Positions 835 to 54,884 of a DNA stretch of 64,000 nt are shown here, piece after piece. Position 1 is the first letter of the stretch. Each line of letters opens with the position of its first letter. The notes under the pieces were generated by a model. The model had not been told where the DNA came from, ran no database searches, and worked only from the letters and a program-made list of their open reading frames with translations. The DNA comes from Ascidia mentula (taxonomy: Eukaryota; Chordata; Ascidiacea; Phlebobranchia; Ascidiidae): NCBI GenBank assembly GCA_947561715.1, contig OX387204.1, positions 8,251,001 to 8,315,000 of the forward strand. Reading direction: 5' to 3'. The translations under genes and the position numbers were made by a program.

Positions 835-2364
835 CAGCCAGTGCATTTGTGTTTACATGAGACATCAAAGGAATAGTACAACCAGCACAGATCGTTGAAT
901 TTTGAATACAATATATTGAACAAGTGTTTTATTCCTTCCATTGGAGATTAGATTTATGCGGCAGACGATATATTGGCTCTACGAATTCTGCGTCGATGCT
1001 GCGATCAGTTGGCAAATCACTATGTTACAGTTAGAAAACTTGACCACCGAACGTTTCCGGGTGTTTGATACTCATTTGTAGTTGCTTGGGAAACAACTGA
1101 ACATGTCTAATAAACAGCAAACCACTAGGTAGTTGTGCACAACGCTAGTTACGCGGGGTGATTTTGACCAACATGTATTTTCCTGTGAGGTCGTTCATAA
1201 TCGTGCATTGGTTTAGATACAAAATGTTTCTTAAGACATCTCCCCTCTGTAAAAACACAAATGTTTGGCACGTGACGAATACCTAAATGAACAACCAATA
1301 TGTCATGATAACTGTTTGAGTTGTGCACCCCTGCCATCAGAGTAGGACAGGTCACAACATATGAGCTATTCAATTCGTTGTAAGTTTTACTACTTGAAAG
1401 TTTTTTGTTGCAAAATGTTACAAGAAAAGTGGACGTTTTTCAAAATAAACCGAATCATTGGAAAACATTCCAAGACAAACCAAAAGAACGATCAAATATC
1501 AGTTTAATTGCTATTAACAATAACTGCATAATGGAATCCCAGTGAACATACAGACCTATTGGTTGGTTTATGCTGTAATTAATGTCACGAGCCCGTCGTC
1601 TAACTCCCACTAATACAAACAAAATATACCCTCACCAAAGTTTAACGTAATTATTTCAGGAAGCGTTTTGTTTGTTACTTACACATCCGTTGATAAATGT
1701 ACAATAGTTTGTAACATGGGCGGAAATCCTTGGGGGCCCAGGGGGCTTGTCCTCCTCAATATTTCAATTCGTGGGCGCATAACATGATTTGTTCCACCCC
1801 CAAAACTCAATGATCTTTAATGTTTGGTATTTTAACTCCCTCGAATATTATCAATCGAATCCGCTAAATTAATGAATTATTCGAAAGAAACAAAAAGAAA
1901 GTTTCTACATAACTCATCGTTTGCCTCTCTGTGAAGGTTCAAATATGCGCTCAATAGTCCAAGTCGCCAATTCTGTCGAAACGCCTTAACAGCCTATACC
2001 CAAGTTACGCTTTTAGTGTAAATTTTGTAGAGAACAGAAAATCCTAATTGACATTGAAGCGATTGTTCGAAAAACGAGTTTGAACCAACACGAAATTATA
2101 GATAACCATGATAATCTGAGTCATCATGTTGCTGCATTGTTGGTTTATACATCTTTGGATAATTATTATAGTGATAAACAAATTTTTATTACATATATAT
2201 ATTTATTTTATTGTACAAGAAAAATATGCAAAAACAGAAATGTTATTCGCCATATAATAACAACAAGTGTTTGTTGTACAGAGACCAAGTGGTCGATAAC
2301 AATGAATAGTGTTTTGCCGGGAGAGCTCTGTTTGCCTCATAAATGATACGTTTGTATCAAATAA

Positions 2365-3352
2365 TTAGACGACTTGGATCTGTGGAAGATCATCAAGTTT
2401 GCTCAGCAGTTGCTCATCCAAATTGATGATCATTCCCCTGTTTTCGATTCCAGCATAAAATCCAACCATGGAGTTTCCAATCGCATTCTATAAAACATAT
2501 TTCTATTGAATAATTTCAAAAACGCATGAGCGTAGACAGATAATTCGGAAACTAACGCGATCAAAAACGTTGTCCAGAGTTTTCATGAGGCCTCCAATTT
2601 CATTGGAAAACATCATGTCCAACACAGTGTAGGGCTTCCCTTTTTTCTCATTGACTTCAGAATCATCCTGTACAAAGCGTATATATCACTTTCCTGCCGT
2701 TACGTTTATCCACAAGTATCTCTATACCGTTGTTGGCAAAGCCGCCTTCAGTTGATTAGACGCATTATCACCGGCAGCAATTGGTTCTTCCATCTAGCAA
2801 TATACAATAAATTAAATCAAAAGATTTGTAAACAAATACTCAAAGGAAAAACAGACACATACGTTTTCGCTGACACTTGTGCTATCAAAGCTGTGATGCA
2901 CATCAACTTTAACAGCAACCAACCTCCCCTGGATTTTCTGCAAACGGCAGTTTTTGTTGATAAAAACAAAAAAACATCTTTGTCGAAAATATTCATACCG
3001 ATTTGGAGCGTCTTTTACCAGGTTTCTCAACTCCAGCAACTTTTCCCTGCAAAATAAAACACAATAAAGTTTAGTTATATCAAGTATACAACTTTAACAA
3101 AGTGGATATAAATAAAAAAGGACAGTTTGTATTCAACTAAACACGCAACACAGCTTTATGAACGTTACCAGAGAAACGTCTTGTTCATCCGTCCCGTGTA
3201 CTGCTTCTATCACTTCCAACTCAAGAGGCACAGCCTTCGATACTTGCCGCACTTTCTGCGAAAAGGTAAAAAAGTCAAAGCTAATACGCAGTGTTACAGA
3301 CAAGCGTAAGTCTTACTTTTGTAGCACTCTTTCTTCCGAAGCAATTTCCCAT
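2365..3352 (-). CDS. MGNC-start small protein, array copy A (unrecognised family)
   Basis: Seven exons on the minus strand, all with phase-0 boundaries and GT-AG introns: 3317-3352, 3169-3255, 2999-3046, 2863-2937, 2728-2793, 2557-2667 and 2365-2487. They join into 181 codons plus stop. The N-terminus MGNCFGRKSATK has Gly2 and Cys4 followed by basic residues, the usual arrangement for N-myristoylation plus palmitoylation, so a membrane-anchored cytoplasmic protein is inferred. Exon 3 encodes a Lys/Arg-rich stretch (KPGKRRSKS). The last two exons form a mixed hydrophobic/acidic C-terminus ending LPQIQVV. No known domain was recognised. The start codon is preceded by an AT-rich stretch with a TATA-like sequence about 45 nt upstream. 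The function is unknown. The gene call rests on matching splice phases and on four further intact copies. Confidence 0.8.
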
Positions 3353-4314
3353 TGTTTTCTTGTAAGATATCTTTAAAACTTCACCTCAATAAATATAACC
3401 TCTTCCCTCTTTGATTTACTACACTCTAAAAATTTCCATTTTTGAAAACACATTTACTTGTCCATTGTTTTGCGTTGGTTGGGTGGATACCGTTCATTGT
3501 TACGTTTAACTTGTTTGGGATCCAGTCAAACGTCACAATTACTACTTTATTGCATGACAATAAACCCCTGCAATTGCCTGCATGACATGATATATTGTTG
3601 TTACTGGCACAGGTCTAACGAACAAACTTGTTTTACCGCGATTTAATATATTTAACTAATTTTCTGAAGAATTGTAAAGTTACAACCTGAATAAAGTAGT
3701 GTAGGGCTAAAAGCAGAACACACGCAAAAGCATGCAGTATCAACAGTACAGTCCATGAACTTTAACATTCATTGGCATTTAAGGCGTATAGCACTGTGAC
3801 AAAATATGGACAATTTAACAAAATTCTAAACTTATTTTTTACTTACTGGGAGATTAAATTGCGGAAATCAATCTTTTTAAATGTTCTGTAGATTAAAGGT
3901 ACTTGTGCCTCGTTTATCTCATTCCGGTGTTGTCAGATCAGCGGTCAGTAGTTAGTAGTCTATGGTTTCAGCATAGTATACTCTATTTCAACGTTCTATG
4001 AATGAAGGGTACTTGTGCCTCGTTTCTCTCATTGCGGGTGGCGGTTTTCCTGCCCAATTGGGCTGTTTTTTTAAATCGAGTTGCGGGTTTTTTTACGGGC
4101 TGTGCCAGTGGTTTATATGACACATTCAACAAAACACTTTGAAACATTTTTACCTGGCAACGTTTGCTTTCATGGGATTTCGTTATGTATCCAGCTTGTG
4201 TGCGCTGTGTTGTCTTTTTTCAAATTTATTATTCGTGTTTTGCCTTTTTGAGAGTTTTCGTTGCTGTTTCAGAACCAAACACCAAGGCTTGCCTGCTGGA
4301 TACCGTGACCTAAA

Positions 4315-4322
4315 TGACGTCA
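4315..4322. promoter_or_regulatory. Perfect CRE palindrome, unit B
   Basis: tgacgtca, about 960 bp upstream of the start codon of gene copy A (minus strand). Confidence 0.4.
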
Positions 4323-5851
4323 CAGCCAGTGCATTTGTGTTTACATGAGACATCAAAGGAATAGTACAACCAGCACAGATCGTTGAATTTTGAATACAAT
4401 ATATTGAACAAGTGTTTTATTCCTTCCATTGGAGATTAGATTTATGCGGCAGACGATATATTGGCTCTACGAATTCTGCGTCGATGCTGCGATCAGTTGG
4501 CAAATCACTATGTTACAGTTAGAAAACTTGACCACCGAAAGTTTCCGGGTGTTTGATACTCATTTTTAGTTGCTTGGGAAGAAACTGAACATGTCTAATA
4601 AACAGCAAACCACTAGGTAGGTGTGCACAACACTAGTTACGCGGGGTGATTTTGACCAACATGTATTTCCCTGTGAGGTCGTTCATAATCGTGCATTGGT
4701 TAAGATACAAAATGTTTCTTAAGACATCTCCCCTCTGTAAAAACACAAATGTTTGGCACGTGACGAATACCTAAATGAACAACCAATATGTCATGATAAC
4801 TGTTTGAGTTGTGCACCCCTGCCATCAGAGTAGGACAGGTCACAACATATGAGCTATTCAATTCGTTGTAAGTTTTACTACTTGAAAGTTTTTTGTTGCA
4901 AAATGTTACAAGAAAAGTGGACGTTTTTCAAAATAAACCGAATCATTGGAAAACATTCCAAGACAAACCAAAAGAACGATCAAATATCATTTTAATTGCT
5001 ATTAACAATAACTGCATAATAATCCCAGTGAACATACAGACCTATTGGTTGATATACGCTGTGATTATTGTCACGAGCCCGTCGTCTAACTCCCACTAAT
5101 ACAAACAAAATATACCCTCACCAAAGTTTAACGTAATTATTTCAGGAAACGTTTTGTTTGTTACTTAAACATCCGTTGATAAATGTACAATAGTTTGTAA
5201 CATGGGCGGAAATCCTTGGGGGTGCAGGGGGCTTGTCCTCCTCAATATTTCAATTCGTGGGCGCATAACATGATTTGTTCCACCCCCAAAACTCAATGAT
5301 CTTTAATGTTTGGTATTTTAACTCCCTCGAATATTATAAATCGAATCCGCTAAATTAATGAATTATTCGAAAGAAACAAAAAGAAAGTTTCTACATAACT
5401 CATCGTTTGCCTCTCTGTGAAGGTTCAAATATGCGCTCAATAGTCCAAGTCGCCAATTCTGTCGAAACGCCTTAACAGCCTATACCCAAGTTACGCTTTT
5501 AGTGTAAATTTTGTAGAGAACAGAAAATCCTAATTGACATTGAAGCGATTGTTCGAAAAACGAGTTTGAACCAACACGAAATTATAGATAACCATGATAA
5601 TCTGAGTCATCATGTTGCTGCATTGTTGGTTTATACATCTTTGGATAATTATTATAGTGATAAACAAATTTTTATTACATATATATATTTATTTTATTGT
5701 ACAAGAAAAATATGCAAAAACAGAAATGTTATTCGCCATATAGTAACAACAAGTGTTTGTTGTACAGAGATCAAGTGGTCGATAACAATGAATAGTTTTT
5801 TTACTGGAAGAGCTCTGTTTGCCTCATATATGATACGTTTGTATCAAATAA

Positions 5852-6842
5852 TTAGACGACTTGGATCTGTGGAAGATCATCAAGTTTGCTCAGCAGTTGC
5901 TCATCCAAATTGATGATCATTCCCCTGTTTTCGATTCCAGCATAAAATCCAACCATGGAGTTTCCAATCGCATTCTATAAAACATATTTCTATTTGATAA
6001 TTTCAAAAACGCATGAGCGTAGATAGATAATTCGGAAACTAACGCGATCAAAAACGTTGTCCAGAGTTTTCATGAGGCCTCCAATTTCATTGGAAAACAT
6101 CATGTCCAACACAGTGTAGGGCTTCCCTTTTTTCTCATTGACTTCAGAATCATCCTGCTGTACAAAGCGTATATATCACTTTCTTGCCGTTACGTTTATC
6201 CACAAGTATCTCTATACCGTTGTTGGCAAAGCCGCCTTCAGTTGATTAGACGCATTATCACCGGCAGCAATTGGTTCTTCCATCTAGCAATATACAATAA
6301 ATTAAATCAAAAGATTTGTAAACAAATACTCAAAGGAAAAACAGACACATACGTTTTCGCCGACACTTGTGCTATCAAAGCTGTGATGCACATCAACTTT
6401 AACAGCAACCAACCTCCCCTGGATTTTCTGCAAACGGCAGTTTTTGTTGATAAAAACAAAAAAACATCTTTGTCGAAAATATTCATACCGATTTGGAGCG
6501 TCTTTTACCCGGTTTCTCAACTCCAGCAACTTTTTCCTGCAAAATAAAACACAATAAAGTTTAGTTATATCAAGTATACAACTTTAACAAAGTGGATATA
6601 AATAAAAAAGGACAGTTTATATTAAACTAAAAACGCAACACAGCTTTATGAACTTTACCAGAGGAACTTCTTGTTCATCCGTCCCGTGTACTGCTTCCAT
6701 CACTTCCAACTCAAGAGGCACAGCCTTCGATACTTGCCGCACTTTCTGCGAAAAGGTAAAAAAGTCAAAGCTAATACGCAGTGTTACAGACAAGCGTAAG
6801 TCTTACTTTTGTAGCACTCTTTCTTCCGAAGCAATTTCCCAT
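5852..6842 (-). CDS. MGNC-start small protein, array copy B
   Basis: Exons are 6807-6842, 6659-6745, 6489-6536, 6353-6427, 6218-6283, 6044-6154 and 5852-5974 on the minus strand. The architecture matches copy A, giving 181 residues. Relative to A it has a few amino-acid changes (for example Gly to Glu at the start of exon 3, Ile to Met and Ser to Pro in exon 2) and no frame damage. The exon 6 acceptor has gained three bases, giving two adjacent CAG acceptors (positions 6155-6160). The transcript could therefore include or omit one Gln codon. Membrane anchoring through MGNC is inferred as for copy A. Confidence 0.8.
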
Positions 6843-7338
6843 TGTTTTCTTGTAAGATATCTTTAAAACTTCACCTCAATAAATATAACCTCTTCCCTCT
6901 TTGATTTACTACACTCTCAAAATTTCCATTTTTGAAAACACATTTACTTGTCCATTGTTTTGAGTTGGTTGCGAGGATACCGTTCATTGTTACGTTTAAC
7001 TTGTTTGGGGTCCAGTCAATCGTCACAATTACTACTTTATTGTACAACAAACCACTGCAATTGCCTGCATGACATGATATATTGTTGTTGCTGGTATGGT
7101 ATAGGTCTTGTTTTACTGCGATTTGATGTAATTAATTAATTTTCTAAAAAAATATAACGTTACAACCTGAAGGAAGTAGTGTAGGACTAAAAGCAGAACG
7201 CGTGGTCAACAGTACAGTCCATAAACTTTAACATTCATTGGTATTTAAGGCGTTTTGCACAGTGACAACATTTGGATAATATAACAATATCCTAACTTTC
7301 CTTTTTCTTCCAGAGGATTAAAGTGCGGAAACAAACTG

Positions 7339-9375
7339 TTTTAGCATCGAATACTAAAACATGGAATGGAAACACCGCAGCCAGAAAGTGTGTCGTCACG
7401 CATGAGTAACACTTTACGCGAAATGGAAAATGCACTGGGCAAAATACGATTTTGACGTTTTTTAGGGGGCTTAAAAACCTATTAAATCGAGCACAATTTA
7501 AATCTTTTTTGAAGAAACAAGATGTTTGCCCCCTCTTTCAAAATAAGTGGATGATTTTTAATTAATCGCGTCGCATCATTTTTTACAGCGATTTGCTGTC
7601 TACTGCCATTGGGGTAGAAATATGAACAAATAATAGCGCGCTTTTGCTGTTTGCAAGCATTGGAAGGCTGAAACCAGTAATATTATCACTTTGCTTGTTA
7701 TGTCAAATCAACTACTTGCTTGCTACTTTTTTCCTAGGACAGTATATCTGCACACAGTTATGTGGTGTTTTGAGAATATTTATTATGCAAAAGTCATTTT
7801 GACATAAAAAGTTAACAAACGATGTCATGACTGCTTGTTTCTGCGATTCCTGTATCTTGTTGAAGTAAATATTATAATGAACTAAATTTTCATAATCAGT
7901 TAATATCAGGAAATACCAAGTTGGTACAGCTGAGCACAAATGTTGCCAGTAAAATCCAGCACAAAACAACATTTTTGTGCATATGGGTTTAAAAAAGTTA
8001 AGCCTTGACAAAATATATGTTGATTGCTTGAAAATACTCAAAAGGCAGGGGGAATACTTCCAATATAAACCAACGAAAATTGGTATGTATGTGTTTACAT
8101 GCAAACAAATTCTGAAAACTTTTATCTTTTACCTTAACATGACATGTTTTTTTTGGAATATACTCCGAAGCATTTTAATAAAGAAATATCTACAACACAT
8201 TCTGTTGTGTTTTACTTATAACTGGTCTGCGAAGAAGAAATATAGTAAAAAAGGTTATATTTGTGTTTATTAAGTTCCAATTTGGCAAAAACAAAAGGCA
8301 ATCGTGTTTAGTTCAACAAAATTTTATATATTTTCAACTGTGTCATGAGCATTCAACCAAGTGTTATGATAAGAGTAAATAAATATACTTTTCATACGTT
8401 GCAAAAGTTTAAAAAAACAATTTCCTTAAAAGATATCAGACTAATCAGCACTTAAAAGCCAAACTTTCTGACCAAAAAGCCAATATATAAAACCAAATAT
8501 TTACATACAAAAACATCAAATAGAAAACTCAGTGATGTATGGAAAAAATATATGAATAAGGTTAATGATACAACAAAAGCAGGTTCATTGCTATTCACAG
8601 AGCATCAGCTCATATGTGGCATGAATTGCTCAGAACCAATGGAAAATAAAAAGGTGGCACAAAAATTTATTTTATGTCTTTTTTTTTAGAAAATTACCAA
8701 CATTTATTAATATTCATTTATATAAAAAGATGAAAAAGGGCCAAATTTAAACATAGTCAACCAAGTAAACACAATTTGAAAAAAGTAGCAAAATTTGGCC
8801 CTATCCTATCTGGCTCACAAAGGCAACAATCCGACATTTTTGGCCAAAAAAACCACAATCTGCCCAACATATGTTTTTACATAATGAGGATTAAAAGAAA
8901 AGTATGAAACATTTTGTTACATATATACTCAATAATGACTGCAAAATTGTGACCTGGGGCTCCGTTTTGTTCAGATATTAGGTTTCTGAATCCCATGATT
9001 GATTTTGAGGCACGTATGCAAATCAAAAAAATTACGTAATCACTTGAATGACGTAATTACATGTCTTACGTCATCTTTGAGGTTGACGCGGTCGCGATGA
9101 TGTGTTGATAATTTTTCAGCATGTATAAGGTTAGAAACACACAGTTAAAAAATATATTTTAGCGCATTATATTTAAAACCATCCCGATATTTGTAAAGAT
9201 TATGACAAAACTACTTGCATTTCACTATGTCGCATTAACTTAAAGTTTTGCCACGCTGAAAACCGCCAAAATCGTATTTAAGCCAATGCATTTTCCATTT
9301 TGCATAAAGTGTTACTCATGCGTGACGAAAAAGATTTTCCGTTCCATTTTTTTGGTTAGTATTCTATGGTTTCAT
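7339..9375. mobile_element. Inverted-repeat-bounded spacer element, copy 1 (between units B and C)
   Basis: The left arm at 7339-7462 (containing cgtcacgcatgagtaacac) is the inverted counterpart of the right arm at about 9262-9375 (containing gtgttactcatgcgtgacg). The arms are about 110-120 bp with mismatches and small gaps. The interior of about 1.8 kb has no convincing coding sequence and no transposase was recognised. This looks like a non-autonomous DNA transposon that was duplicated with the array. Its absence between units A and B supports its being a separable element. Confidence 0.55.
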
Positions 9376-9739
9376 CATAGTATACTCTATTTCAACATTC
9401 TATGAATGAAGGGTACTTGTGCCTCGTTTCTCTCATTGCGGTGTTGCAAGGGTGGCGGTTTTCCAGCCCGATTGGGCTGTTTTTTTAAATCCAGTTGCGG
9501 TTTTTTTTACTGGCTGTGCCGGTGGTTTATTGAGCGGATTGCAAATGACACATTTAACAAAACACTTTGAAACATTTTTACCTGGCAACATTTGCTTTCA
9601 TGATATTTCGTTATGTATCCAGCTTGTGTGCGCTGTGTTGTCTTTTGTCAAATTTATTATTCGTGTTTTACTTTTTTGAGAGTTTTCGTTGCTGTTTCAG
9701 AACCAAACACCAAGGCTTGCCTGGATACCGTGACCTAAA

Positions 9740-9747
9740 TGACGTCA
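9740..9747. promoter_or_regulatory. Perfect CRE palindrome, unit C
   Basis: tgacgtca, upstream of gene copy B across the spacer element. Confidence 0.35.
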
Positions 9748-11208
9748 CAGTGAATTTGTGTTTACATGAGACATCAAAGGAATAGTACAACCAGCAAAGA
9801 TCGCTGAATTGTAAATACAATATATTGAACGAATGTTTTTTTCCACGAATTCTGCGTCGATGCTGCCATCAGTTGGCAAATCACTATGTTACAGTTAAAA
9901 AACTTGACCACCGAAAGTTTCCGGGTGTTTGATACTCATTTGTCGTTGCTTGGGAATCAACTGAACATGTCTAATAAACAGCAAACCACTAGGTAGGTGT
10001 GCAGAATACTAGTTACGCGGGGTGATTTTGACCAACATGTATTTCCCTGTGAGGTCGTTCATAATCGTGCATTGGTTTAGATACAAAATGTTTCTTAGGA
10101 CATCTACCTTGTGTAAAAACACAAATGTTTGCCACGTGACGAATACTTAAATGAACAACCAATATGTCATGATAACTGTTTGAGTTGTGCGCCCCTGCCA
10201 TCAGAGTAGGACAGATTACAACATATGAGCTATTCAATTCGTTTTAGGTTTTACCACATGAATTTTTGTTGTTGACGTTTTTCAAAATAAACCGAATCAT
10301 TGGAAAACATTCCAAGACAAACCAAAAGAACGATCAAATATCAGTTTAATTGCTATTAACAATAACTGCATAATGGAATCCCAGTGAACATATAGACCTT
10401 TTGGTTGGTTTATGCTGTAATTAATGTCACGAGCCCGTCGTCTAACTCCCACTAATACAAACATAATATACACTCACCAAAGTTTAACGTAATTATTTCC
10501 GGAAACGTTTGGTTTGTTACTTACACATCTGTTAATAAATGTACAATAGTTTGTAACATGGGCGGAAATCCTTGGGGGCCCAGGGGGCTTATCCTCCTCA
10601 ATATATCTGTTCGTGGGCACATAACATGATTTGTTCCACCCCAAAAACATCAATGATCTTTAATGTTTGGTATTTTAACTCCCTCGAATATTATAAATCG
10701 AATCCGCCGAATTAATGAATTATTCGAAAGAAACAAAAAGAAAGTGTCCACATAACTCATCGTTTGCCTCTCTGTGAAGGTTCAAATATGCACTCAATAG
10801 TCCAAGTCGCCAATTCTGTCGAAACGCCTTAACAGCCTATACCAAAGTTCCGCTTTTAGTGTAAATTTTGTAGAGAACAGAAAATCCTAATTGACATTGA
10901 AGCAATTGTTTAAAAAACGAGTTTGAACCAACACAAAATATTTAAATAACCATGATACTCTGAGTCATCATGTTGCTGCATTGTTGGTTTATACATCTTT
11001 GGATAATTATTACAGTGATAAACAAATTTTTATTACATATATAAATTTATTTTAATGTACAAGAAAAATATGCAAAAACAGAAATGTTATACGCCATATA
11101 GTAACAACAAGTGTTTGTTGTACAGAGACCAAGTGGTCGATAACAATGAATAGTTTTTTGCCGGAAGAGCTCTGTTTGCCTCATAAATGATACGTTTGTA
11201 TCAAATAA

Positions 11209-12155
11209 TTAGACGACTTGGATCTGTGGAAGATCATCAAGTTTGCTCAGCAGTTGCTCATCCAAATTGATGATCATTCCCCTGTTTTCGATTCCAGCAT
11301 AAAATCCAACCATGGAGTTTCCAATCGCATTCTATAAAACATATTTCTATTTAATAATTTCAAAAACGCATGAGCGTAGACAGATAATGCGGAAACTAAC
11401 GCGATCGAAAACGTTGTCCAGAGTTTTCATGAGGCCTCCAATTTCATTGGAAAACATCATGTCCAACACAGTGTAGGGCTTCCCTTTTTTCTCATTGACT
11501 TCAGAATCATCCTGTATAAAACGTATGTATCACTTTCTTGCCGTTACGTTTATCCACAAGTATCTCTATACCGTTGTTGGCAAAGCTGCCTTCTGTTGAT
11601 TAGACGCATTATCACCGGCAGCAATTGGTTCTTCCATCTAGCAATATACAATAAATTAAATCAAAAGATTTGTAAACGAATACTCAAAGGAAAAACAGAC
11701 ACATACGTTTTCGCCGACACTTGTGCTATCAAAGCTGTGATGCACATCAACTTTAACAGTAACCAACCTCCCCTGGATTTTCTGCAAACGGCAGTTTTTG
11801 TTGTTAAAAACAAAAAACATCTTTGTGTAAAATATTCATACCGATTTGGAGCGTCTTTTACCCGGTTTCTCAACTCCAGTAAATTTTTCCTGCAAAATAA
11901 AACACAATATAAATAAAAAAGGACAGTTTATATTCAACTAAATACGCAATACAGCTTTATGAAGTTTACCAGAGAAACTTCTTGTTCATCCGTCCCGTGT
12001 GCTGCTTCTATCACGCCCAACTCAAGAGGCACAGCCTTCGATACTTGCCGCACTTTCTGCGACAAGGTAAAAAAAGTCAAAGCTAGATACACAGTGTTAC
12101 AGACAAGCGTAAGTCTTACTTTTGTAGCACTCTTTCTTCCGAAGCAATTTCCCAT
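11209..12155 (-). CDS. MGNC-start small protein, array copy C
   Basis: Exons are 12120-12155, 11970-12056, 11842-11889, 11707-11781, 11572-11637, 11401-11511 and 11209-11331 on the minus strand, all phase 0, giving 181 residues. Copy-specific changes include Glu to Gly in exon 2 and EKFTG in place of GKVAG at the start of exon 3. The introns are a little shorter than in copies A and B because of small deletions, but exon lengths are unchanged. In this copy intron 1 happens to be open, so exons 1 and 2 are visible in one continuous reading frame starting at 12155. That supports the choice of start codon. Confidence 0.8.
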
Positions 12156-12656
12156 TGTTTTCTTGTAAGATATCTTTAAAACTTCACCTTAATAAATATA
12201 ACCTCCTCCCTCTTTGATTCACTAGACTCTCAAAATTTCCATTTTTGAAAACACATTTACTTGTCCATTGTTTTGCGTTGGTTGCGAGGATACCGTTCAT
12301 TGTTACGTTTAACTTGTTTGGGGTCCAGTCAATCGTCACAATTACGCATTTATTATACAACAAACCACTGCAATTGCCTGCATGACATGATATATTGTTG
12401 TTGCTGGTATGGTATAGGTCTTGTTTTACTGCGATTTGATGTAATTAATTAATTTTCTAAAGAAATATAACGTTACAACCTGAAGGAAGTAGTGTAGGAC
12501 TAAAAGCAGAACGCGTGGTCAACAGTACAGTCCATAAACTTTAACATTCATTGGTATTTAAGGCGTTTTGCACAGTAACAACATTTGGATAATATAACAA
12601 TATCCTAACTTCCCTTTTTCTTCCCAGAGGATTAAAGTGCGGGAAACAAACTGTTT

Positions 12657-14282
12657 TAACATCGAATACTAAAACATGGAAAGGAAACACCGCACCCACA
12701 AAGTGCGTCGTCACGCATGAGTAACACTTTACGCGAAATGGAAAATGCACTGGGCAAAATACGATTTTGGCGTTTTTTATGGGGCTTAAAAACCTATTAA
12801 ATCGAGCACAATTTAAATCTTTTTTGAAGAAACAAGATGTTTGCCCCCTCTTTTAAAATAAGTGGATGATTTTTAATTAATCGCGTCGCATCATTTTTTA
12901 CAGCGATTTGCTGTCTACTGCCATTGGGGTCGAAATATAAAAAAATAATAGCGCGCTTTTGCTGTTTGCAAGCATTGGAAGGCTGAAACCAGTAATATTA
13001 TCACTTTGCTTGTTATGTCAAATCAACTACTTGCTTGCTACTTTTTTCCTAGGACAGTATATCTGCACACAGTTATGTGGTGTTTTGAGAATATTTATTA
13101 TACAAAAGTCATTTTGACATAAAAAGTTGACAAACGATATAATGACTGCTTGTTTCTGCGATTTCTGTATCTTGTTGGATATTTTAATGAACTAAATTTT
13201 CATAATCAGTTAATATCAGGAAATACCAAGTTGGTACAGCTGAGCACAAATGTTGCCAGTAAAATCCAGCACAAAACAATATTTTTGTGCATATGGGTTT
13301 GAAAAAGTTAAGCCTTGACAAAATATATGTTGATTGCTTGAAAATACTCAAGGGCAGTGGGAATACTTCCAATATAAACCAACGAAAATTGGTATGTATG
13401 TGTTTACATGCAAACAAATTATGAAAACTTTTACCTTAACATGACATGTTTTTGTGGAATATACTCAGAAGAAGCATTTTATCAAAGAAATATCTACATC
13501 ACGTACTGTTGTGTTTTACTTATAACTGGTCTGCGAAGAAGACACATAGTGAAAAAGGTTATATTTGTATTTATCAAGTTCCAATTTGGCAAAAACAAAA
13601 GGCAATCGTGTTTTGTTCAACAAAATTTTCTATACTTTTAACTGTGTCATGTGCATTAAACCAAGTGTTATGATAAGAGTAAATAAATATACTTCTCTTA
13701 TATTGCAAAAGTTAAAAAAAAAACAATTTCCTTAAAAGATATCAGACTAATCAGCACTTAAAAGCCAAACTTTCTGACCAAAAAGCCAATATATAAAACC
13801 AAATATTTACACACAAAAACATCAAATAGAAAACTCAGTGATGTATGGGAAAAATATATAAATAACGTTAATGATATAACAAAAGCAGGTTCATTGCTAT
13901 TCACAGAGCATCGGCTCATATGTGGCATGAATTGCTCAGAACCAATGGAAAATAAAAAGGCGGCGCAAAAATTTTGAGGTTGACGAGAAGATGTATTGAT
14001 AATTTTTTCGCATGTAAGGTTAGAAACATACAGTTAAAAAATATATTTTAGTGCGTTATATTTAAAACTATCCCCCATATTTGTAAAGATTATGGACAAA
14101 ACTACTTGCATTTCACTGAAACCATTACGCTATGTCGCATTAACTTAAAGTTTTGCCCCGCTGAAAAATTCCAAAATCGTATTTAAGCCAATGCATTTTT
14201 CTTTTTGCATAAAGTGTTACTCATGCGTGACGAAAAAGATTTTCTGTTCCATTTTTTGGTTAGTATTCTATGGTTTCAGCAT
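12657..14282. mobile_element. Inverted-repeat-bounded spacer element, copy 2 (between units C and D)
   Basis: The left arm lies at about 12657-12775 and the right arm at about 14160-14282, with the same inverted sequences as copy 1. This copy is shorter (about 1.6 kb). The part corresponding to 8680-9080 of copy 1, including the octamer/ACGT cluster, is deleted around 13975. Confidence 0.5.
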
Positions 14283-14652
14283 AGTATACTCTATTTCAAT
14301 GTTCTATGAATGAAGGGTGCACTTGTGCCTCGTTTCTCTCATTGCGGTTGCGGTGTTGCAAGGGTGGTGGTTTTCCTGCCCAATTGGGCTGTTTTTTTAA
14401 ATCGAGTTGCGGGTTTTTTTTACGGGCTGTGCCAGTGGTTTATAGAGCGGATTGCAAATGACACATTCAACAAAACATTTTGAAACATTTTTACCTGGCA
14501 ACATTTGCTTTCATGGGATTTCATTATGTATCCAGCTTGTGTGCCCTGTGTTGTCTTTTGTCAAATTCATTATTCGTGTTTTGCCTTTTTGAGAGTTTTC
14601 GTTGCTGTTTCAGAACCAAACACCAAGGCTTGCCTGGATACCGTGACCTAAA

Positions 14653-14660
14653 TGACGTCA
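14653..14660. promoter_or_regulatory. Perfect CRE palindrome, unit D
   Basis: tgacgtca in the same unit position as in the other copies, upstream of gene copy C. Confidence 0.35.
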
Positions 14661-15912
14661 CAGTGAATTTGTGTTTACATGAGACATCAAAGGAATAGTA
14701 CAATCAGCACAGAACGTTGAATTGTAAATATTTGTAAAACAAAATATATCGATAAAGTGTTTTATACCTTCCATTGGAGATTAGATTTATGCGGCAGACG
14801 ATATATTGGCTCTACGCATTCTGCGTCGATGCTGCGATAAGATGGCAAATCACTATGTTACAGTTAGAAAACTTGACCACCGAACGTTTCCGGGTGTTTG
14901 ATACTCATTTGTAGTTGCTTGGGAAACAACTGAACATGTCTAATAAACAGCAAACCACTAGGTAGTTGTGCACAACGCTAGTTACGCGGGGTGATTTTGA
15001 CCAACATGTATTTTCCTGTGAGGTCGTTCATAATCGTGCATTGGTTTAGATACAAAATGTTTCTTAAGACATCTCCCCTCTGTAAAAACACAATTGTTTG
15101 GCACGTGACGAATACTTAAATGAACAACCAATATGTCATGATAACTGTTTGAGTTGTGCACCCCTGCCATCAGAGTAGGACAGATTACAACATATGAGCT
15201 ATTCAATTCGTTGTAAGTTTTACAGTTTTTTTGTTGCAAAATGTTACAAGAAAAGTTGACGTTTTTCAAAATAAACCGAATCATTGGAAAACATTCCAAG
15301 ACAAACCAAAAGGATGATAAAATATCAGTTTAATTGCTATTGACAATAACTGCATAATGGAAACGCAGTGAACATATAGACCTTTTGGTTGGTATACGCT
15401 GTGATTATTGTCACTAGCCCGTCGTCTAACTCCCACTAATACAAACAAAATATACACTCACTAAAGTTCAACGTAATTATTTCAGGAAACGTTTGGTTTG
15501 TATGTTACACATCCGTTGATAAATGTACAATAGTTTGTAACATGGGCGGAAATCCTTGGGAGCCCATGGGGCTTATTGTCCTCTTCAATATATCTGTTCG
15601 TGGGCGCATATCATGATTTTCCACCCAAAAAGAATCAATAAATTATTCGAAAGAAACAAAAAGAAAGTGTCCACATGACTCATCGTTTGCCTCTCTGTGA
15701 AGGTTCAAATATGCGCTCAATAGTCCAAGTCTGCAATTCTGTCGAAAAGCCCTAACAGCCTATACCCAAGTTTCGCTTTTAGTGTAAATTTTGTAGAGAA
15801 CAGAAAATCCTAATTGACACTTAAGCGATTGTTTAAAAAACGAGTTTGAACCAACACAAAATTATAGATAACCATGATACTCTGAGTCATCCTGTTGCTG
15901 CATTGTTGGTTA

Positions 15913-16428
15913 ATGCACTGATGTAGCGAAAACGACAACGACACACAGCACACAGCACACAGACACTAAATCTTTTCTTTATGCTTTCTTTGTTCACCTG
16001 TGTTGTTTATTTAAATCACTCTTGTTACTTATATACGCACATCCCATCGCACTTTTGTTTATGTTTCTATCTTTTCTCGCACGTTATTTTCACAAATTGT
16101 CGTTTTTGTATGTTTGCCACGTCGTCCCGTAACGCCCCATTGATTTCCGTGTACGTTGATTGGTTGGTTGGCCGGGGCAAAGCGGTGCTTTCGGTACGAC
16201 CCGGTTAGTTTTGAGAGGGGCGTCGTGCTGTACGGGGTGGGAGTGTCGCAAAACGAGTACCGATTGTTGTATTGGCTTTTACTGAGATATGCACGTTTTA
16301 CCGTCGTTTTAGCTGTTTATTAAGGAGAAGCCCATTTAGCGAACCAGCGTGAGAGACTTTGGCTTTAGTGGTGAGCCGTTATTGCAGGGTCCGGGCCGAA
16401 GTAGGAAATAATTCCGTGACAACACTTT
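15913..16428. mobile_element. LTR-like insertion in unit D
   Basis: The other units run directly from gttggttta to tttggataattatt. In unit D about 510 bp of unrelated, more GC-rich DNA interrupts this point. It begins near tgatgtagcgaaaacgacaa and ends near attccgtgacaaca, so a TG...CA solo LTR is possible. A short flanking repeat (cact) is the only target-duplication candidate. No coding sequence is recognised inside. The element class is uncertain. Confidence 0.4.
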
Positions 16429-16637
16429 GGATAATTATTATAGTGATAAACAAATTTTTATTACATATATAAATTTATTTTATTGTACAAGAAAAATATG
16501 CAAAAACAGAAATGTTATACGCCATATAGTAACAACAAGTGTTTGTTGTACAGAGACCAAGTGGTCGTTAACAATGAATAGTGTTTTTGCCAGAAGAGCT
16601 CTGTTTGCCTCATAAATGATACGTTTGTATCAAATAA

Positions 16638-17801
16638 TTAGAGGACTTGGATCTGTGGAAGATCATCAAGTTTGCTCAGCAGTTGCTCATCCAAATTGAT
16701 GATCATTCCCCTGTTTTCCATTCCAGCATAAAATCCAACCATGGAGTTCCCAATCGCATTCTATAAAACATATTTCTATTCAATAATTTCAAAAACACAT
16801 GAGCGTAGACAGATAATTCGGAAACTAACGCGATCAAAAACGTTGTCCAGAGTTTTCATGAGGCCTCCAATTTCATTGGAAAGCATCAGGTCCAACACAG
16901 TGTAGGGCTTCCCTTTTTTCTCATTGACTTCAGAGTCATCCTGTATAAAACGTATAAATCACTTTCTTGCCGTTACGTTTATCCACAGGTATCTCTATAC
17001 CGTTGTTGGCAAAGCTGCCTTCAGTTGATTAGACGCATTATCACCGGCAGCAATTGGTTCTTCCATCTAGCAATATACAATAAATTAAATCAAAAGATTT
17101 GTAAACAAATACTCAAAGGAAAAACAGACACATACGTTTTCGCCGACACTTGTGCTATCAAAGCTGCGGTGCACATCAACAACCAACCTCCCCTGGATTT
17201 TCTGCAAACGGCAGTTTTTGTTGTTAAAAACAAAAAACATCTTTGTGGAAAATATTCACACCGATTTGGAGCGTCTTTTACCCGGTTTCTCAACTCCAGT
17301 AACTTTTCCCTGCAAAATGAAACACAATAAAGTTTAGATATATCAAGTATACAACTTTAACAAAGTGGATATAATTTGAAAAGTACGGTTTATATTAAAT
17401 TAAAAACTCATTACAGCTTCATGAACTTTACCAGTGTAACACATACCGATTTGGAGCGTTTTTTCCTCGGTTTCTCAACTCCAGTAACTTTTGCCTGCAA
17501 AATAAAACACAATTAAGTTTAGTTATATCAAGTATACAACTTTAACAAAGTGGATATAAATAAAAAAAGGACAGTTTATATTAAACTAAAAACGCAACAC
17601 AGCTTTATGAAGTTTACCAGAGAAACTTCTTGTTCATCCGTTCCGTGTGCTGCTTCTATCACTTCCAACTCAAGAGGCATAGCCTTCGATACTTGCCGCA
17701 CTTTCTGCGAAAAGGTAAAAAAGTCAAAGCTAGTACGCAGTGTTACAGACAAGCGCAAGTCTTACTTTTGTAGCACTCTTTCTTCCGAAGCAATTTCCCA
17801 T
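16638..17801 (-). CDS. MGNC-start small protein, array copy D, with duplicated exon 3
   Basis: Eight exons on the minus strand: 17766-17801, 17618-17704, 17447-17494, 17262-17309, 17136-17201, 17001-17066, 16830-16940 and 16638-16760. Exon 3 is present twice (17447-17494 and 17262-17309). Each copy is 48 nt with its own acceptor and donor, so the basic segment is encoded twice in frame (KPRKKRSKS, then KPGKRRSKS). Exon 4 lacks nine bases (three codons) relative to the other copies. Predicted product is 194 residues ending QIQVL. Changes are all multiples of three, as expected for a selected reading frame. Whether both exon 3 copies are spliced in cannot be seen from DNA. Confidence 0.78.
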
Positions 17802-19819
17802 TGTTTTCTTGTAAGATATCTTTAAAACTTCACCTCAATAAATATAACCTCTTTCCTCTTTGATTTACTACACTCTCAAAATTTCCATTTTTGAAAACAC
17901 ATTTACTTGTCCATTGTTTTGCGTTGGTTGCGAGGATACGGTTCATTGTTACGTTTAACTTGTTTGGGGTCCAGTCAATCGTCACAATTACTACTTTATT
18001 GTACAACAAACCACTGCAATTGCCTGCATGACATGATATATTGTTGTTGCTGGTATGGTATAGGTCTTGTTTTACTGCGATTTGATGTAATTAATTAATT
18101 TTCTAAAGAAATATAACGTTACAACCTGAAGGAAGTAGTGTAGGACTAAAAGCAGAACGCGTGGTCAACAGTACAGTCCATAAACTTTAACATTCATTGG
18201 TATTTAAGGCGTTTTGCACAGTGACAACATTTGGATAATATAACAATATCCTAACTTCCCTTTTTCTTCCAGAGGATTAAAGTGCGGGAAACAAACTGTT
18301 TTAGCATCGAATACTAAAACATGGAATGGAAACACCGCAGCCAGAAAGTGCGTCGTCACGCATGAGTAATACTTTACGCGAAATGGAAAATGCACTGGGC
18401 AAAATACGATTTTGGCGTTTTTTAAGGGGCTTAAAAACCTATTAAATCAAGCACAATTTAAATCTTTTTTGAAGAAACAAGATGTTTGCCCCCTCTTTTA
18501 AAATAAGTGGATGATTTTTAATTAATCGCGTCGCATCATTTTTTACAGCGATTTGCTGTCTACTGCCATTGGGGTCGAAATATAAACAAATAGTAGCGCG
18601 CTTTTGCTGTTTGCAAGCATTGGAAGGCTGAAACCAGTAATATTATCACTTTGCTTGTTATGTCAAATCAACTACTTTGCTTGCTATTTTTTTCCTAGGA
18701 CAGTATCTCTGCACACAGTTATGTGGTGTTTTGAGAATATTTATTATGCAAAAGTCATTTTGACATAAAAAGTTAACAAACGATATAATGACTGCTTGTT
18801 TCTGGGATTTCTGCATCTTGTTCAAGATGGATATTATAATGAACTAAATTTTCATAATCAGTTAATATCAGGAAATACCAAGTTGGTACAGCTGAGCGCA
18901 AATGTTGCCAGTAAAATCCAGCACAAAACAACATTTTTGTGCAGATGGGTTTGAAAAAGTTAAGCCTTGACAAAATATATGTTGATTGCTTGAAAATATT
19001 CAAAGGCAGTGGGAACACTTCCAACATAAACCAACGAAAATTGGTATGTATGTGTTTACATGCAAAAATTCTGAAAACTTTTACTTCAACGTGACATGTT
19101 TCTTTGGAATATAGCCTACTCATTTTAATAAAGACATATCTACATCAAATTCTTATGTGTTTTACTTATAACTGGTCTGCAAAGAAGAAATATAGTGAAA
19201 AAGGTTATATTTGTATATATTATGTTCCAATTTGGGTAAAGCAAAAGGCAATTGTGTTTAGTTCAACAAAATATTAAATATTTTCAACTGTGTCATGAGC
19301 ATTAAACCTAGTGGTATGATAAGAGTAAAGAAATATATTTCTATTACGATGCAAAAGTTTAAAAAAAACAACTTCCTTTAAATTCAATGTGTTTTCTTTT
19401 TAGAGCTATCAGACTAATCAGCACTTAAAAGCCCAACTTTCTGACCTAAAAGCCAATATATACAATCAAATATTTATATACAAAAACATCAAATAGAAAA
19501 CTCAGTGATGTTTGGAAAAATATATAAATAAGGTTAATGATACAACAAAAGCAGGTTCATTGCTATTCACAGAGCATCGGCTCATATGTGGCATGAATTG
19601 CTCAGAACCAATGGAAAAAAAGGTGGCACAATAATTTATCTGATCATATCAATTTTTTTACATAATCACAACATTTATAAATATTTATTTACACAAAAAG
19701 ATGAAAAAAGGCCAAATTTAAATATAGTCAACCAAAGTAAATACAATTTGAAAATAAAGCCAAAAAAATTTGACCTTATGAAACATTTTGTTATACGCAA
19801 AAAAGCCATAATATTGGCG

Positions 19820-19879
19820 AGCTACAGACAGGGTGTGTACTCCCACTGTTTCGACCTGTAAGGTCTTATCAGTGCAGCT
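19820..19879 (-). ncRNA. Type I-like hammerhead ribozyme motif, complete but with a core change
   Basis: On the minus strand, stem I (19873-19879 pairing with 19820-19826, seven pairs with one G-U) leads into ctgataa (19866-19872). Stem II follows as gacct-tac-aggtc (19853-19865), then gaa, then stem III (acag...ctgt with an inner ggg/ccc; 19828-19849). Cleavage is expected after the C at 19827. The core reads CUGAUAA where the family has CUGAUGA. The changed base is G8, a catalytic position, so this copy is probably inactive. Confidence 0.65.
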
Positions 19880-20259
19880 GTTGAAGTGGCACTGTGCCAG
19901 CTTCTACACTAGCAGGCACACTAAATTCCACTTTGTGGTACCGTTCCGGTGAACGTCGATCTTTTGGGTAGCCTATACTGAGTACCAAACAACAGAGACG
20001 AACCACTGTGGAGCGCACTATGGCCAAACGGATCTGCTTGGTAACTGATAGCGCTAAACGCAAAAACACCTGTCTGCAGCTCGCCAATATTATGGCTTTT
20101 TTAGCACATATATTGCTTCACAGTGGTTCGTCTCTGTTGTTTGGTACTAAGTATAGGTTACCCAACAGATCGACGTTCACCGGAACGGTACCACAAAGTG
20201 GAATTTATTAGTGTGCCTGCTAGTGTAGAGGCTTCTAGCATGCACTGTGCCACTTCAAC

Positions 20260-20290
20260 AGCTGCACTGATGAGACCTTACAGGTCGAAC
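20260..20290 (+). ncRNA. Hammerhead ribozyme 5' half with intact CUGAUGA core
   Basis: The plus strand carries agctgca, ctgatga, a five-pair stem II (gacct/aggtc, loop tac) and gaa. The matching stem III end and cleavage site (ctgtc) with stem I partner tgcagct are at 20070-20081, upstream, as expected when tandem monomers are cut out of one transcript. One A after GAA is missing or replaced compared with the minus-strand copy. A further degraded half lies at 20402-20420. Confidence 0.55.
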
Positions 20291-21250
20291 AGGTCGTGGT
20301 TCGTCTCTGTTGTTTGGTACCAACAGATCGACGTTCACCTGAACGGTACCACAAAGTGGAATTTAGTGTGCCTGCTAGTGTAGAAGCCAGAACAGTGCCA
20401 CTTCAACAGCTGCACTGATGAGAACACCCTACGTAGGCTATACACAACGATGAATGCAAAATTGTGACCTGCGGCTCTGTTTTGTTCAGATATTAGGTTT
20501 CTGAATCCCATGATTGATTTTGAGGCAGGTATGCAAATCAAAAAAATTACGTAATCACTTGAATGAAGTAATTACATGTCTTACGTCGTCTTTGAGGTTG
20601 ACGCGATGATGTGTTGATAATTTTTCAGCATGTAAGGTTAGAAACACACAGTTAAACAATATATTTTAGCGCGTTATATTTAAAACCATCCTGATATTTG
20701 TAAAGATCATGACAAAACTACTTGCATTTCACTTAAACCCTTGCACTATGTCGCATTATCTTAAAGTTTTGCCACGCTGAAAACCGCCAAAATCGTATTT
20801 AAGCCAATGCATTTTTCATTTTGCATAAAGTGTTACTCATGCGTGACGAAAAAGATTTTCCGCTTCATGTTTTGGTTAGTATTCTATGGTTTCAGCATAA
20901 TATACTATATTTCAACGTTCTATGAATGAAGGGTACTTGTGCCTCGTTTCTCTCGTTGCGGGTGGCGGTTTTCCTGCCCAATTGGGCTGTTTTTTTTAAA
21001 TCGAGTTGCGGGTTTTTTTACGGGCTGTGCCAGTGTTTTATAGAGCGGATTGCAAATGACAAATTCAACAAAACACTTTGAAACATTTTTACCTGGCAAC
21101 GTTTGCTTTCATGGGATTTCGTTATGTATCCAGCTTGTGTGCCCTGTGTTGTCTTTTTTCAAATTTATTATTCGTGTTTTGCCTTTTTGAGAGTTTTCGT
21201 TGCTGTTTTAGAACCAAACACTAAGGCTTGCCTGGATACCGTGACCTAAA

Positions 21251-21258
21251 TGACGTCA
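21251..21258. promoter_or_regulatory. Perfect CRE palindrome, unit E
   Basis: tgacgtca in the same unit position, upstream of gene copy D. Confidence 0.35.
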
Positions 21259-22786
21259 CAGTGAATTTGTGTTTACATGAGACATCAAAGGAATAGTACA
21301 ACCAGCAAAGATCGTTGAATTGTAAATACAATATATTGAACGAATGTTTTTTTCCTTCCATTGCAGATTAGATTTATGCGGCAGACGATATATTGGCTCT
21401 GCGAATTCTGCGTCGATGCTGCGATCAGTTGGCAAATCACTATGTTACAGTTAGAAAACTTGACCACCGAAAGTTTCCGGGTGTTTGATACTCATTTTTA
21501 GTTGCTTGGGAAGAAACTGAACATGTCTAATAAACAGCAAACCACTAGGTAGGTGTGCACAACACTAGTTACGCGGGGTGATTTTGACCAACATGTATTT
21601 CCCTGTGAGGTCGTTCATAATCGTGCATTAGTTAAGATACAAAATGTTTCTTAAGACATCTCCCCTCTGTAAAAACACAAATGTTTGGCACGTGACGAAT
21701 ACCTAAATGAACAACCAATATGTCATGATAACTGTTTGAGTTGTGCACCCCTGCCATCAGAGTAGGACAGGTCACAACATATGAGCTATTCAATTCGTTG
21801 TAAGTTTTACTACTTGAAAGTTTTTTGTTGCAAAATGTTACAAGAAAAGTGGACGTTTTTCAAAATAAACCGAATCATTGGAAAACATTCCAAGACAAAC
21901 CAAAAGAACGATCAAATATCAGTTTAATTGCTATTAACAATAACTGCATAATGGAATCCCAGTGAACATACAGACCTATTGGTTGGTTTATGCTGTAATT
22001 AATGTCACGAGCCCGCCGTCTAACTCCCACTAATACAAACAAAATATACCCTCACCAAAGTTTAACGTAATTATTTCAGGAAACGTTTTGTTTGTTACTT
22101 ACACATCCGTTGATAAATGTACAATAGTTTGTAACATGGGCGGAAATCCTTGGGGGTGCAGGGGGCTTGTCCTCCTCAATATTTCAATTCGTGGGCGCAT
22201 AACATGATTTGTTCCACCCCCAAAACTCAATGATCTTTAATGTTTGGTATTTTAACTCCCTCGAATATTATAAATCGAATCCTCTAAATTAATGAATTAT
22301 TCGAAAGAAACAAAAAGAAAGTTTCTACATAACTCATCGTTTGCCTCTCTGTGAAGGTTCAAATATGCGCTCAATAGTCCAAGTCGCCAATTCTGTCGAA
22401 ACGCCTTAACAGCCTATACCCAAGTTACGCTTTTAGTGTAAATTTTGTAGAGAACAGAAAATCCTAATTGACATTTGAAGCGATTGTTCGAAAAACGAGT
22501 TTGAACCAACACGAAATTATAGATAACCATGATAATCTGAGTCATCATGTTGCTGCATTGTTGGTTTATACATCTTTGGATAATTATTATAGTGATAAAC
22601 AAATTTTTATTACTTATATATATTTGTTTAATTGTACAAGAAAAATATGCAAAAACAGAAATGTTATTCGCCATACAGTAACAACAAGTGTTTGTTGTAC
22701 AGAGACCAAGTGGTCGATAACAATAAATAGTGTTTTTGCCTGGAGAGCTCTGTTTGCCTCATAAATGATACGTTTGTATCTAATAA

Positions 22787-23774
22787 TTAGAGGATTTGGA
22801 TCTGCGGAAGATCATCAAGTTTGCTCAGCAGTTGCTCATCCAAATTGATGATCATTCCCCTGTTTTCGATTCCAGCATAAAATCCAACCATGGAGTTTCC
22901 AATCGCATTCTATAAAACATATTTCTATTCAATAATTTCAAAAACACATGAGCGTAGACAGATAATTCGGAAACTAACGCGATCGAAAACGTTGTCCAGA
23001 GTTTTCATGAGGCCTCCAATTTCATTGGAAAACATCATGTCCAACACAGTGTAGGGCTTCCCTTTTTTCTCATTGACTTCAGAATCATCCTGTACAAAGC
23101 GTATAAATCACTTTCTTGCCGTTACGTTTATCCACAAGTATCTCTATACCGTTGTTGGCAAAGCCGCCTTCAGTTGATTAGACGCATTATCACCGGCAGC
23201 AATTGGTTCTTCCATCTAGCAATATATAATAAATTAAATCAAAAGATTTTTAAACAAATACTCAAAGGAAAAACAGACACATACGTTTTCGCCGACACTT
23301 GTGCTATCAAAGCTGTGATGCACTTCAACTTTAACAGTAACCAACTTCCCCTGGATGTTCTGCAAACGGCAGTTTTTGTTGATAAAAACAAAAAAACATC
23401 TTTGTCGAAAATATTCATACCGATTTGGAGCGTCTTTTACCCGGTTTCTCAACTCCAGCAACTTTTTCCTGCAAAATAAAACACAATTAAGTTTAGTTAT
23501 ATCAAGTATACAACTTTAACAAAGTGGATATAAACAAAAAAGGACAGTTTATATTAAACTAAAAACTCAAGACAGCTTTATGAAGTTTACCAGAGGAACT
23601 TCTTGTTCATTCGTCCCGTGTGCTGCTTCTATCACTTCCAACTCAAGAGGCACATCCTTCGATACTTGCCGCACTTTCTGCGAAAAGGTAAAAAAGTCAA
23701 AGCTAATACGCAGTGTTACAGACAAGCGTAAGTCTTACTTTTGTAGCACTCTTTCTTCCGAAGCAATTTCCCAT
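22787..23774 (-). CDS. MGNC-start small protein, array copy E
   Basis: Exons are 23739-23774, 23591-23677, 23421-23468, 23285-23359, 23150-23215, 22979-23089 and 22787-22909 on the minus strand, giving 181 residues. The layout and intron lengths match copy A exactly. Replacements include Ala to Asp and Asp to Asn in exon 2, KIQGR to NIQGK in exon 4, and a C-terminus QIQIL. All splice sites are retained. This is the copy nearest RBM22, which reads in the opposite direction, so the two promoters share about 1 kb of intergenic DNA. Confidence 0.8.
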
Positions 23775-24794
23775 TGTTTTCTTGTAAGATATCTTTAAAA
23801 CTTCACCTCAATAAATATAACCTCTTCCCTCTTTGATTTACTACACTCTAAATTTCCATTTTTGAAAACACATTTACTTGTCCATTGTTTTGCGTTGGTT
23901 GCGAGGATACGGTTCATTGTTACGTTTAACTTGTTTGGGGTTCAGTCAATCGTCACAATTACTACTTTATTGCATGACAAACCACTGCAATTGCCTGCAT
24001 GACAGGATATATTGTTGTTGCTGGTACAGGTCTAACGAACAAACTTGTTTTACCGCGATTTGATATATTTAACTAATTTTCTGAAGAATTGTAACGTTAC
24101 AACCTGAACAAAGTAGTGTAGGGCTAAAAGCAGAACACACGCAAAAGCATGCAGTATCAACAGTACAGTCCATGAACTTTAACATTCATTGGCATTTAAG
24201 GCGTATAGCACTGTGACAAAATATGGATAATTTAACAAAATTCTAAACTTATTTTTTACTTACTGGGAGATTAAATTGCGGAAATCAATCTTTTTAAATG
24301 TTCTGTAGATTAAAGGTATTTGTGCCTCGTTTATCTCATTCCGGTGTTGTCAGATCAGCGGTCAGTGTTGCCGGGGTGGCGGTTTTCCTACCTAATTGGG
24401 CTGGTTTTCGGCATCCAGTTCGGGTTATTTTTACGGATTGTGTTTTTTTGGGGGGCAGATTGCCAATGAAACATTCAACAAAACATTTTGAAACATTTTT
24501 ATCTGACAACATTTGCTCTCATGGGATTTCATTATGTATCCAACCAGCTTGTGTGCGTTTTGTTGCTTTTTTGTCAATTTTATCATTCGTGATTAGCCTT
24601 TTTGAGAGTGTTGATGGTGTTTCAGAGCCTAATTTTTTGCGTTGGTAATTTCATGTTGTTGAGGAAAATAAAATATTGTACAAGTTTTTCCGGTTTGTTA
24701 AAAGTTCACAATTTCAAAAAATTGCATATAGGCTAAGTAAAGTAATACTCTTTCTTCATGCACTAGTTTCTTAATACTAAGCATAAGATAAAAC

Positions 24795-35468: not shown

Positions 35469-54884
<19,416 letters not shown>

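Follow-up and report, generated by a model that had tools for sequence, protein, structure and literature searches.

A tandem ascidian gene family with an acylation-type N terminus, a conserved C-terminal region and phase-0 exons that vary in number

What is encoded by the five repeated units in a 64,000-nucleotide stretch of Ascidia mentula chromosome 8 (GenBank assembly GCA_947561715.1, contig OX387204.1, positions 8,251,001 to 8,315,000; hereafter the window), and is their reading frame a real one? A preliminary description of the window had proposed a five-copy tandem family of an unrecognized, predicted membrane-anchored protein of 181 residues, hidden in short exons. Our analyses revealed that these units belong to a protein-coding family that is under purifying selection between its older copies and extends well beyond the window. 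The reading that we favor, to which we give a probability of roughly 0.5, is that the array genes form a protein-coding multigene family whose product is a lipid-anchored cytoplasmic adaptor with a variable spacer.

Rebuilding of the five copies, A to E, from their splice patterns gave intact joined frames on the minus strand, with seven exons in each copy except D, which has eight. The exon chains, in window coordinates, are:

Copy A: 3352-3317, 3255-3169, 3046-2999, 2937-2863, 2793-2728, 2667-2557, 2487-2365; minus strand; 7 exons, 181 residues
Copy B: 6842-6807, 6745-6659, 6536-6489, 6427-6353, 6283-6218, 6157-6044 (or 6154-6044), 5974-5852; minus strand; 7 exons, NAGNAG acceptor, 182 or 181 residues
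Copy C: 12155-12120, 12056-11970, 11889-11842, 11781-11707, 11637-11572, 11511-11401, 11331-11209; minus strand; 7 exons, 181 residues
Copy D: 17801-17766, 17704-17618, 17494-17447, 17309-17262 (exon 3 twice), 17201-17136, 17066-17001, 16940-16830, 16760-16638; minus strand; 8 exons, 194 residues
Copy E: 23774-23739, 23677-23591, 23468-23421, 23359-23285, 23215-23150, 23089-22979, 22909-22787; minus strand; 7 exons, 181 residues

The exon lengths are, in order, 36, 87, 48, 75, 66, 111 and 123 nt, each a multiple of three. Two copies depart from this pattern. In D, exon 4 is 66 nt long (9 nt shorter) and exon 3 is present twice, in a duplicated stretch with 185-bp spacing; in B, use of the upstream AG of the NAGNAG acceptor makes exon 6 114 nt long and adds one codon. 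All introns of the window copies are GT..AG, including the two beside the duplicated exon of D, and all are in phase 0. The joined proteins start with MGNCFGRKSATK. Their earlier assigned length of 181 residues holds for A, C and E and fails for B (182 residues, or 181 with the other acceptor) and D (194 residues). The exon chains, counts, phases and frames that had been reported were reproduced, with five of five frames open on rebuilding, confirming the earlier observation. An open joined frame of this length is not expected by chance, being found in 9 of 100,000 order-1 Markov sequences, a comparison in which the five copies are not independent of one another.

To find further members, we carried out DNA and protein searches of the species' own genome, in which match counts are lower bounds, and then modeled the loci. 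The five window copies proved to be part of an array of six, the sixth (F) lying upstream of the window; the next 10 kb upstream of the array gave no family match. The array is one branch of the family, which has members at three further places and includes two diverged branches on chromosome 8, 0.9 and 1.6 Mb from the array. In total we count at least 14 gene loci, so the proposal of an expanded, coding gene family stands with its extent corrected. Twelve genes were modeled, A to G (type 1), H to J (type 2) and K and L (type 3), of which those outside the window are:

Copy F: chr8:8,245,951-8,246,897, in the same array, upstream of the window; intact, 181 residues
Copy G: chr2 14,976,247-14,977,232; intact, 182 residues
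Type 2 genes H, I and J: chr8 7.309-7.324 Mb; start MGNCFARRNRVK, 180 residues each, the same seven exons and phases
Type 3 genes K and L: chr8 6.692 and 6.700 Mb; start MGNCFGCRNRAE, 207 and 245 residues

Intact frames and phase-0 exons were found in all 12 modeled genes of the three branches, with introns of 57-160 nt. Partial or broken copies are also present, two at chr8 7.301-7.304 Mb and several on chromosome 7. In a FastTree tree of exons 6-7 from the 12 genes, type 1 stands apart from types 2 and 3 on a long branch (support 1.000), and G falls inside the array group with weak support (0.394). The same tree does not cleanly part types 2 and 3 (support is 0.991 for J together with K and L, and 0.228 for K with L), which suggests that these two types have a common head and differ in their spacer. 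Weak minus-strand matches to the exon 3-4 motif were seen at two other loci (L032, 4218-4117 and 2561-2496; L035, 2239-2138), with E values of 0.08-4.2 with A and 0.45-2.5 with J; at the L032 4218 match the frame, as read by eye, extends upstream into a Cys-rich stretch. These matches may be chance or a distant relative.

That the family is protein-coding and under purifying selection between older copies is known because of the older paralogues outside the window and not because of the array copies. Nonsynonymous (dN) and synonymous (dS) rates were estimated by the Nei-Gojobori method (NG86) from a protein alignment that is unreliable in the type-3 spacers, and the type-3 values (such as 1.70 for K versus L) were for that reason not used. 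Each of A to F compared with G gave a dS of 0.27-0.34 and a dN of 0.060-0.070, a ratio of 0.19-0.24. For the change counts, the first exon-3 copy of D and two extra codons, one in B at the NAGNAG acceptor and one in G, were left out, with masking of the 9-nt gap in D. Counted in this way, A and G differ by 28 nonsynonymous and 29 synonymous changes, where about 75% nonsynonymous would be expected (p=1.8e-5). The strongest part is exons 6-7, which taken alone show 9 nonsynonymous versus 14 synonymous changes (p=0.00013). For H versus J, the NG86 ratio was 0.40 and the count test gave p=0.017. Between types 1 and 2, dS was 1.23-1.99 and dN 0.41-0.45.

The genes also have a conserved proximal promoter. 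Alignment of the 300 bp upstream of the 12 start codons revealed conservation from about -200 to the start. Specifically, in four between-type pairs the identity was 61-68% at -200 to -1 compared to 27-38% at -300 to -201, and this between-type conservation is seen near silent-site saturation. The conserved stretch includes the string ACGTAACAAT and, some 40 nt ahead of the ATG, a TATA-like box. Within the array, differences per site amount to 0.035 in the -200 promoter and to 0.17 upstream of it, in sequence that may not be homologous in all copies. On the 3' side, all 12 genes have a first AATAAA 66-215 nt past the stop, a weak sign in AT-rich DNA. In the window, these features are:

Proximal promoter of A: 3353..3552, minus strand; -200 to -1, alignable in the 12 modeled genes; TATA-like TATATTTATT at about 3397-3388, read by eye
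Proximal promoter of B: 6843..7042, minus strand; from the upstream alignment
Proximal promoter of C: 12156..12355, minus strand; from the upstream alignment
Proximal promoter of D: 17802..18001, minus strand; from the upstream alignment
Proximal promoter of E: 23775..23974, minus strand; from the upstream alignment
AATAAA poly(A)-signal-like motifs of A: 2185..2212, minus strand; 153 and 175 nt past the stop, similar in B to E

Exon duplication in this family is modular, and it is most extensive in the type-3 branch. In K and L, the place of exons 2-4 is taken by a 57-nt exon, present five times in K and seven times in L, which resembles the first part of exon 5 fused to the last part of exon 4. 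The 57-nt exon also occurs, in 42 and 40 copies with a 134-nt period, in a second pair of type-3 genes, which lie tail to tail at chr8 6,667,727-6,679,738. The AG, the GT, the length of 57 nt and the open frame are kept in 42 of 42 and 40 of 40 of these copies, and in 94 of 94 when K and L are included. The introns in the repeat arrays are mostly 77 nt. The exon encodes a 19-residue module, for which the commonest form in two of the arrays is VDDRDTKAIEVDVHSVTDN. In both the 42- and the 40-exon gene, exon 7 breaks off about 16 nt in, at the center of the palindrome (the cut point was read by eye). This tail-to-tail palindrome with its lost exon 7 could be real or could be an assembly fold-back; the palindrome and the repeat arrays are known from one assembly and could contain assembly errors. 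A detached array on chromosome 7 (13,811,002-13,812,352; L043) has 10 of 10 copies of the 57-nt exon intact, and its start and end exons (1, 6 and 7) were not found by exact patterns in 10 kb.

Per-unit rates were measured for units with the next unit at exactly 134 nt (94 units, the chromosome 7 array included). In all five arrays measured (L036-L039 and L043), the exon parts of the units vary more than the introns, 0.018-0.070 versus 0.004-0.013 per site, which is the reverse of the usual pattern. Distinct variants in the repeat exons number 0.67 per synonymous site versus 0.47 per nonsynonymous site. Because synonymous variants are not rarer than nonsynonymous variants per site, we do not claim positive selection for these exons.

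The proteins share an N terminus, MGNCF, that is invariant in 12 of 12 modeled proteins, and between types 1 and 2 all differences in codons 3-5 are silent (AAT TGC TTC versus AAC TGT TTT). PROSITE PS00008 is the N-myristoylation pattern, and all 12 proteins match it at Gly2, directly after the Met, as a sequence pattern. Cys4, the putative palmitoylation site, is likewise invariant in all 12 and is the sole Cys in types 1 and 2. Among the first 21 residues, types 1 and 2 have 6-7 Lys/Arg against 0-1 acidic residues, and type 3 has 4 of each. None of the three proteins tested has a hydrophobic segment (maximum 19-residue Kyte-Doolittle values of 0.63-1.08), and the N terminus and hydropathy of these three gave no sign of a signal peptide, no dedicated predictor having been run. 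The best-conserved part of the protein is encoded by exons 6-7 and comprises the approximately 77 C-terminal residues.

The family searches covered all modeled proteins but B, E and I, with type 3 scanned against Pfam (K and L) and the PDB (K). Pfam gave nothing significant for 9 of the 12 proteins (A, C, D, F, G, H, J, K and L); its best scores were PF09119 in the repeat spacer of K (E 0.023; 15.1 bits, cut-off 25) and PF04563 in H (E 0.048; 13.6 bits, cut-off 28.2). NCBIfam and PHROGs yielded nothing significant for 6 of the 12 (A, C, F, G, H and J), with best E values of 0.16 and 0.087, and the PDB nothing significant for A, K or a profile of A/C/F/G/H/J (best E 0.19). These results agree with the preliminary description, which could place the protein in no known family, and the family appears to be without a described relative in the libraries searched. 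A literature search on ascidian myristoylated, tandem or exon-array orphan families gave nothing fitting among the matches listed.

How might such a protein work? Each gene would give a small soluble protein without a transmembrane segment. Its MGNCF start and the basic residues that follow would be N-myristoylated on Gly2 and S-palmitoylated on Cys4, which would keep it attached to a membrane on the cytoplasmic side; as a description, "membrane-anchored" is reasonable for such a predicted protein. Exons 2-5 would form a polar spacer. As every internal exon is in phase 0, the frame survives the duplication or loss of a single exon, and spacer length therefore varies between genes, through the second exon 3 of D and the 5, 7, 40 and 42 copies of the fused exon 4/5 module in the third branch. 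The head encoded by exons 6-7 (about 77 residues) would bind a partner, and the whole protein would act as an adaptor that is tethered to a membrane and has a variable-length spacer. We infer this role because of the layout, that is, an acylation-type start, a variable polar spacer and a conserved C-terminal head; acylation, membrane side and adaptor role are together the most likely assignment. Peripheral membrane adaptors that are dually acylated at an MGxC start include LAMTOR1/p18, FRS2 and BAALC. The family may work in the way these adaptors do. It resembles them in its Met-Gly-x-Cys start, the basic stretch that follows in types 1 and 2, the lack of a transmembrane segment and the small soluble body; unlike them, it has no significant sequence match in Pfam or the PDB.

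Several observations weigh against the lipid-anchored adaptor. The gene models were read from genomic sequence alone, and acylation is predicted from the motif alone, whose position 6 is Gly/Ala instead of Ser. The libraries searched yielded no homologue of known function. AlphaFold gave exon 7 alone a mean predicted local distance difference test score (pLDDT) of 58.9, and exons 6-7 with the intron read through (TAG taken as Q) a mean pLDDT of 71.4 and a predicted template modeling score of 0.34, with one long helix through the intron-derived stretch; this last model was given no weight. Upstream of H and J, conservation at -600 to -201 is much the same as at -200 to -1 (0.082 versus 0.075 differences per site). 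In exons 1-5 between types 1 and 2, a raw count without multiple-hit correction is weak (p of 0.11 for A-H, 0.041 for A-J and 0.12 for G-J). In A to F alone, 27 nonsynonymous and 11 synonymous distinct changes give a dN/dS indistinguishable from 1 (p 0.19-0.42 for transition weights of 1-3), as it is in the close pair H-I (p=0.46). The comparison of dN/dS across copies that had been suggested is thus uninformative for the six array copies, where the test has little power. Finally, substitution rates are no higher in introns than in exons, at 0.034 versus 0.021-0.038 in the array and 0.096 versus 0.100-0.104 for the array against G. The ratio indistinguishable from 1 in the six copies and the similar intron and exon rates are also what favors a different account, that the array copies are recent, largely non-functional duplicates of one functional gene whose frames are open only through youth. 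We consider this unlikely, as frames, splice sites and start are intact in six of six array copies, exon length changes in the window copies are multiples of three, gap runs are rarer in the exons of the array (1.1-1.4 per kb) than in its introns (5.4 per kb, about four to five times as many), and the -200 promoter is as conserved within the array as the exons. There is also a competing frame on the plus strand, an unbroken run of 173-178 codons over the exon-intron region (e.g., 2536-3057) that is open in five of five window copies and in F. In the chromosome 2 copy G this frame is broken by 1- and 2-nt indels, leaving a longest frame of 105 codons; it shows no third-position excess of substitutions (23/16/16); and the plus strand of the three type-2 genes has no frame of more than 105 codons in the stretches examined, whereas the sense frame is kept in G and in these genes. 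We therefore reject the plus-strand frame as the true gene, for which we see next to no chance, and take it to be a by-product of array youth.

Other alternatives concern what the protein does. The exons of Schistosoma micro-exon genes (MEG) are symmetric. In one account, these genes have exons of 3-81 bp, introns of up to 5 kb and secreted products (PMC10526429). If the present family were of that type, alternative inclusion of symmetric short exons would give many isoforms and diversity would itself be the function, for example in recognition or immune variation. All exons here are indeed short and symmetric, the 40- and 42-exon genes exist, and their unit exons differ more than the introns (0.043-0.070 versus 0.010-0.012 per site); the likeness to MEG lies in genes built of many short exons (PMC10526429) and in the symmetry of the exons. 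In contrast to MEG as described there, the exons are 36-123 nt and the introns 57-160 nt, the start is of acylation type and there is no sign of a signal peptide (PMC10526429). Moreover, the synonymous variants noted above leave no clear mark of positive selection, and exons are single-copy in types 1 and 2 except for exon 3 of D, all of which makes this explanation distinctly doubtful. A more speculative idea, which we hold to be improbable, is a tunicate-specific lipid-anchored system in which reach or valency would be set by phase-0 exon copying, with 0 to 42 copies of the 19-residue module lying between an acylated anchor and a head that are both constant, and with repeat exons diversifying faster than introns. 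Such a system could serve variable recognition, for example on blood cells or gametes. The genus raises one further candidate, the vanabin-interacting protein (VIP) family of vanadium-accumulating blood cells, known from the congener Ascidia sydneiensis samea. VIP1 and its variants are described as a set of several members with great variation in both length and sequence (PMC9486056), and the likeness of the two families, compared by description only, lies in the genus and in having several variable members (PMC9486056). This match is one of circumstance only, and we think identity with VIP very improbable; were it true, the family would bear on vanadium handling, and we mention it as a lead only.

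An orphan family in a tunicate is not unusual as such; the most unusual part is the exon-array branch outside the window. If the lipid-anchored adaptor is correct, the anatomy would be one of anchor, modular spacer and head. Copying of a frame-neutral exon is a plain route to a change of protein length. The states of 0, 5, 7, 40 and 42 exons in one genome offer a natural series for studying exon-array expansion and the splicing of dozens of near-identical small exons.

In the window as a whole, no RNA families or tRNAs were found at the thresholds used. An exon-like stretch at 52463-52813 on the minus strand matches potassium/ion channel pore profiles (PF07885, E 5.8e-10; PF00520, E 3.7e-8), and a frame at 61479-61853 on the plus strand has a weak u-PAR/Ly-6 match (PF00021, E 0.00052) that is below the curated cut-off.

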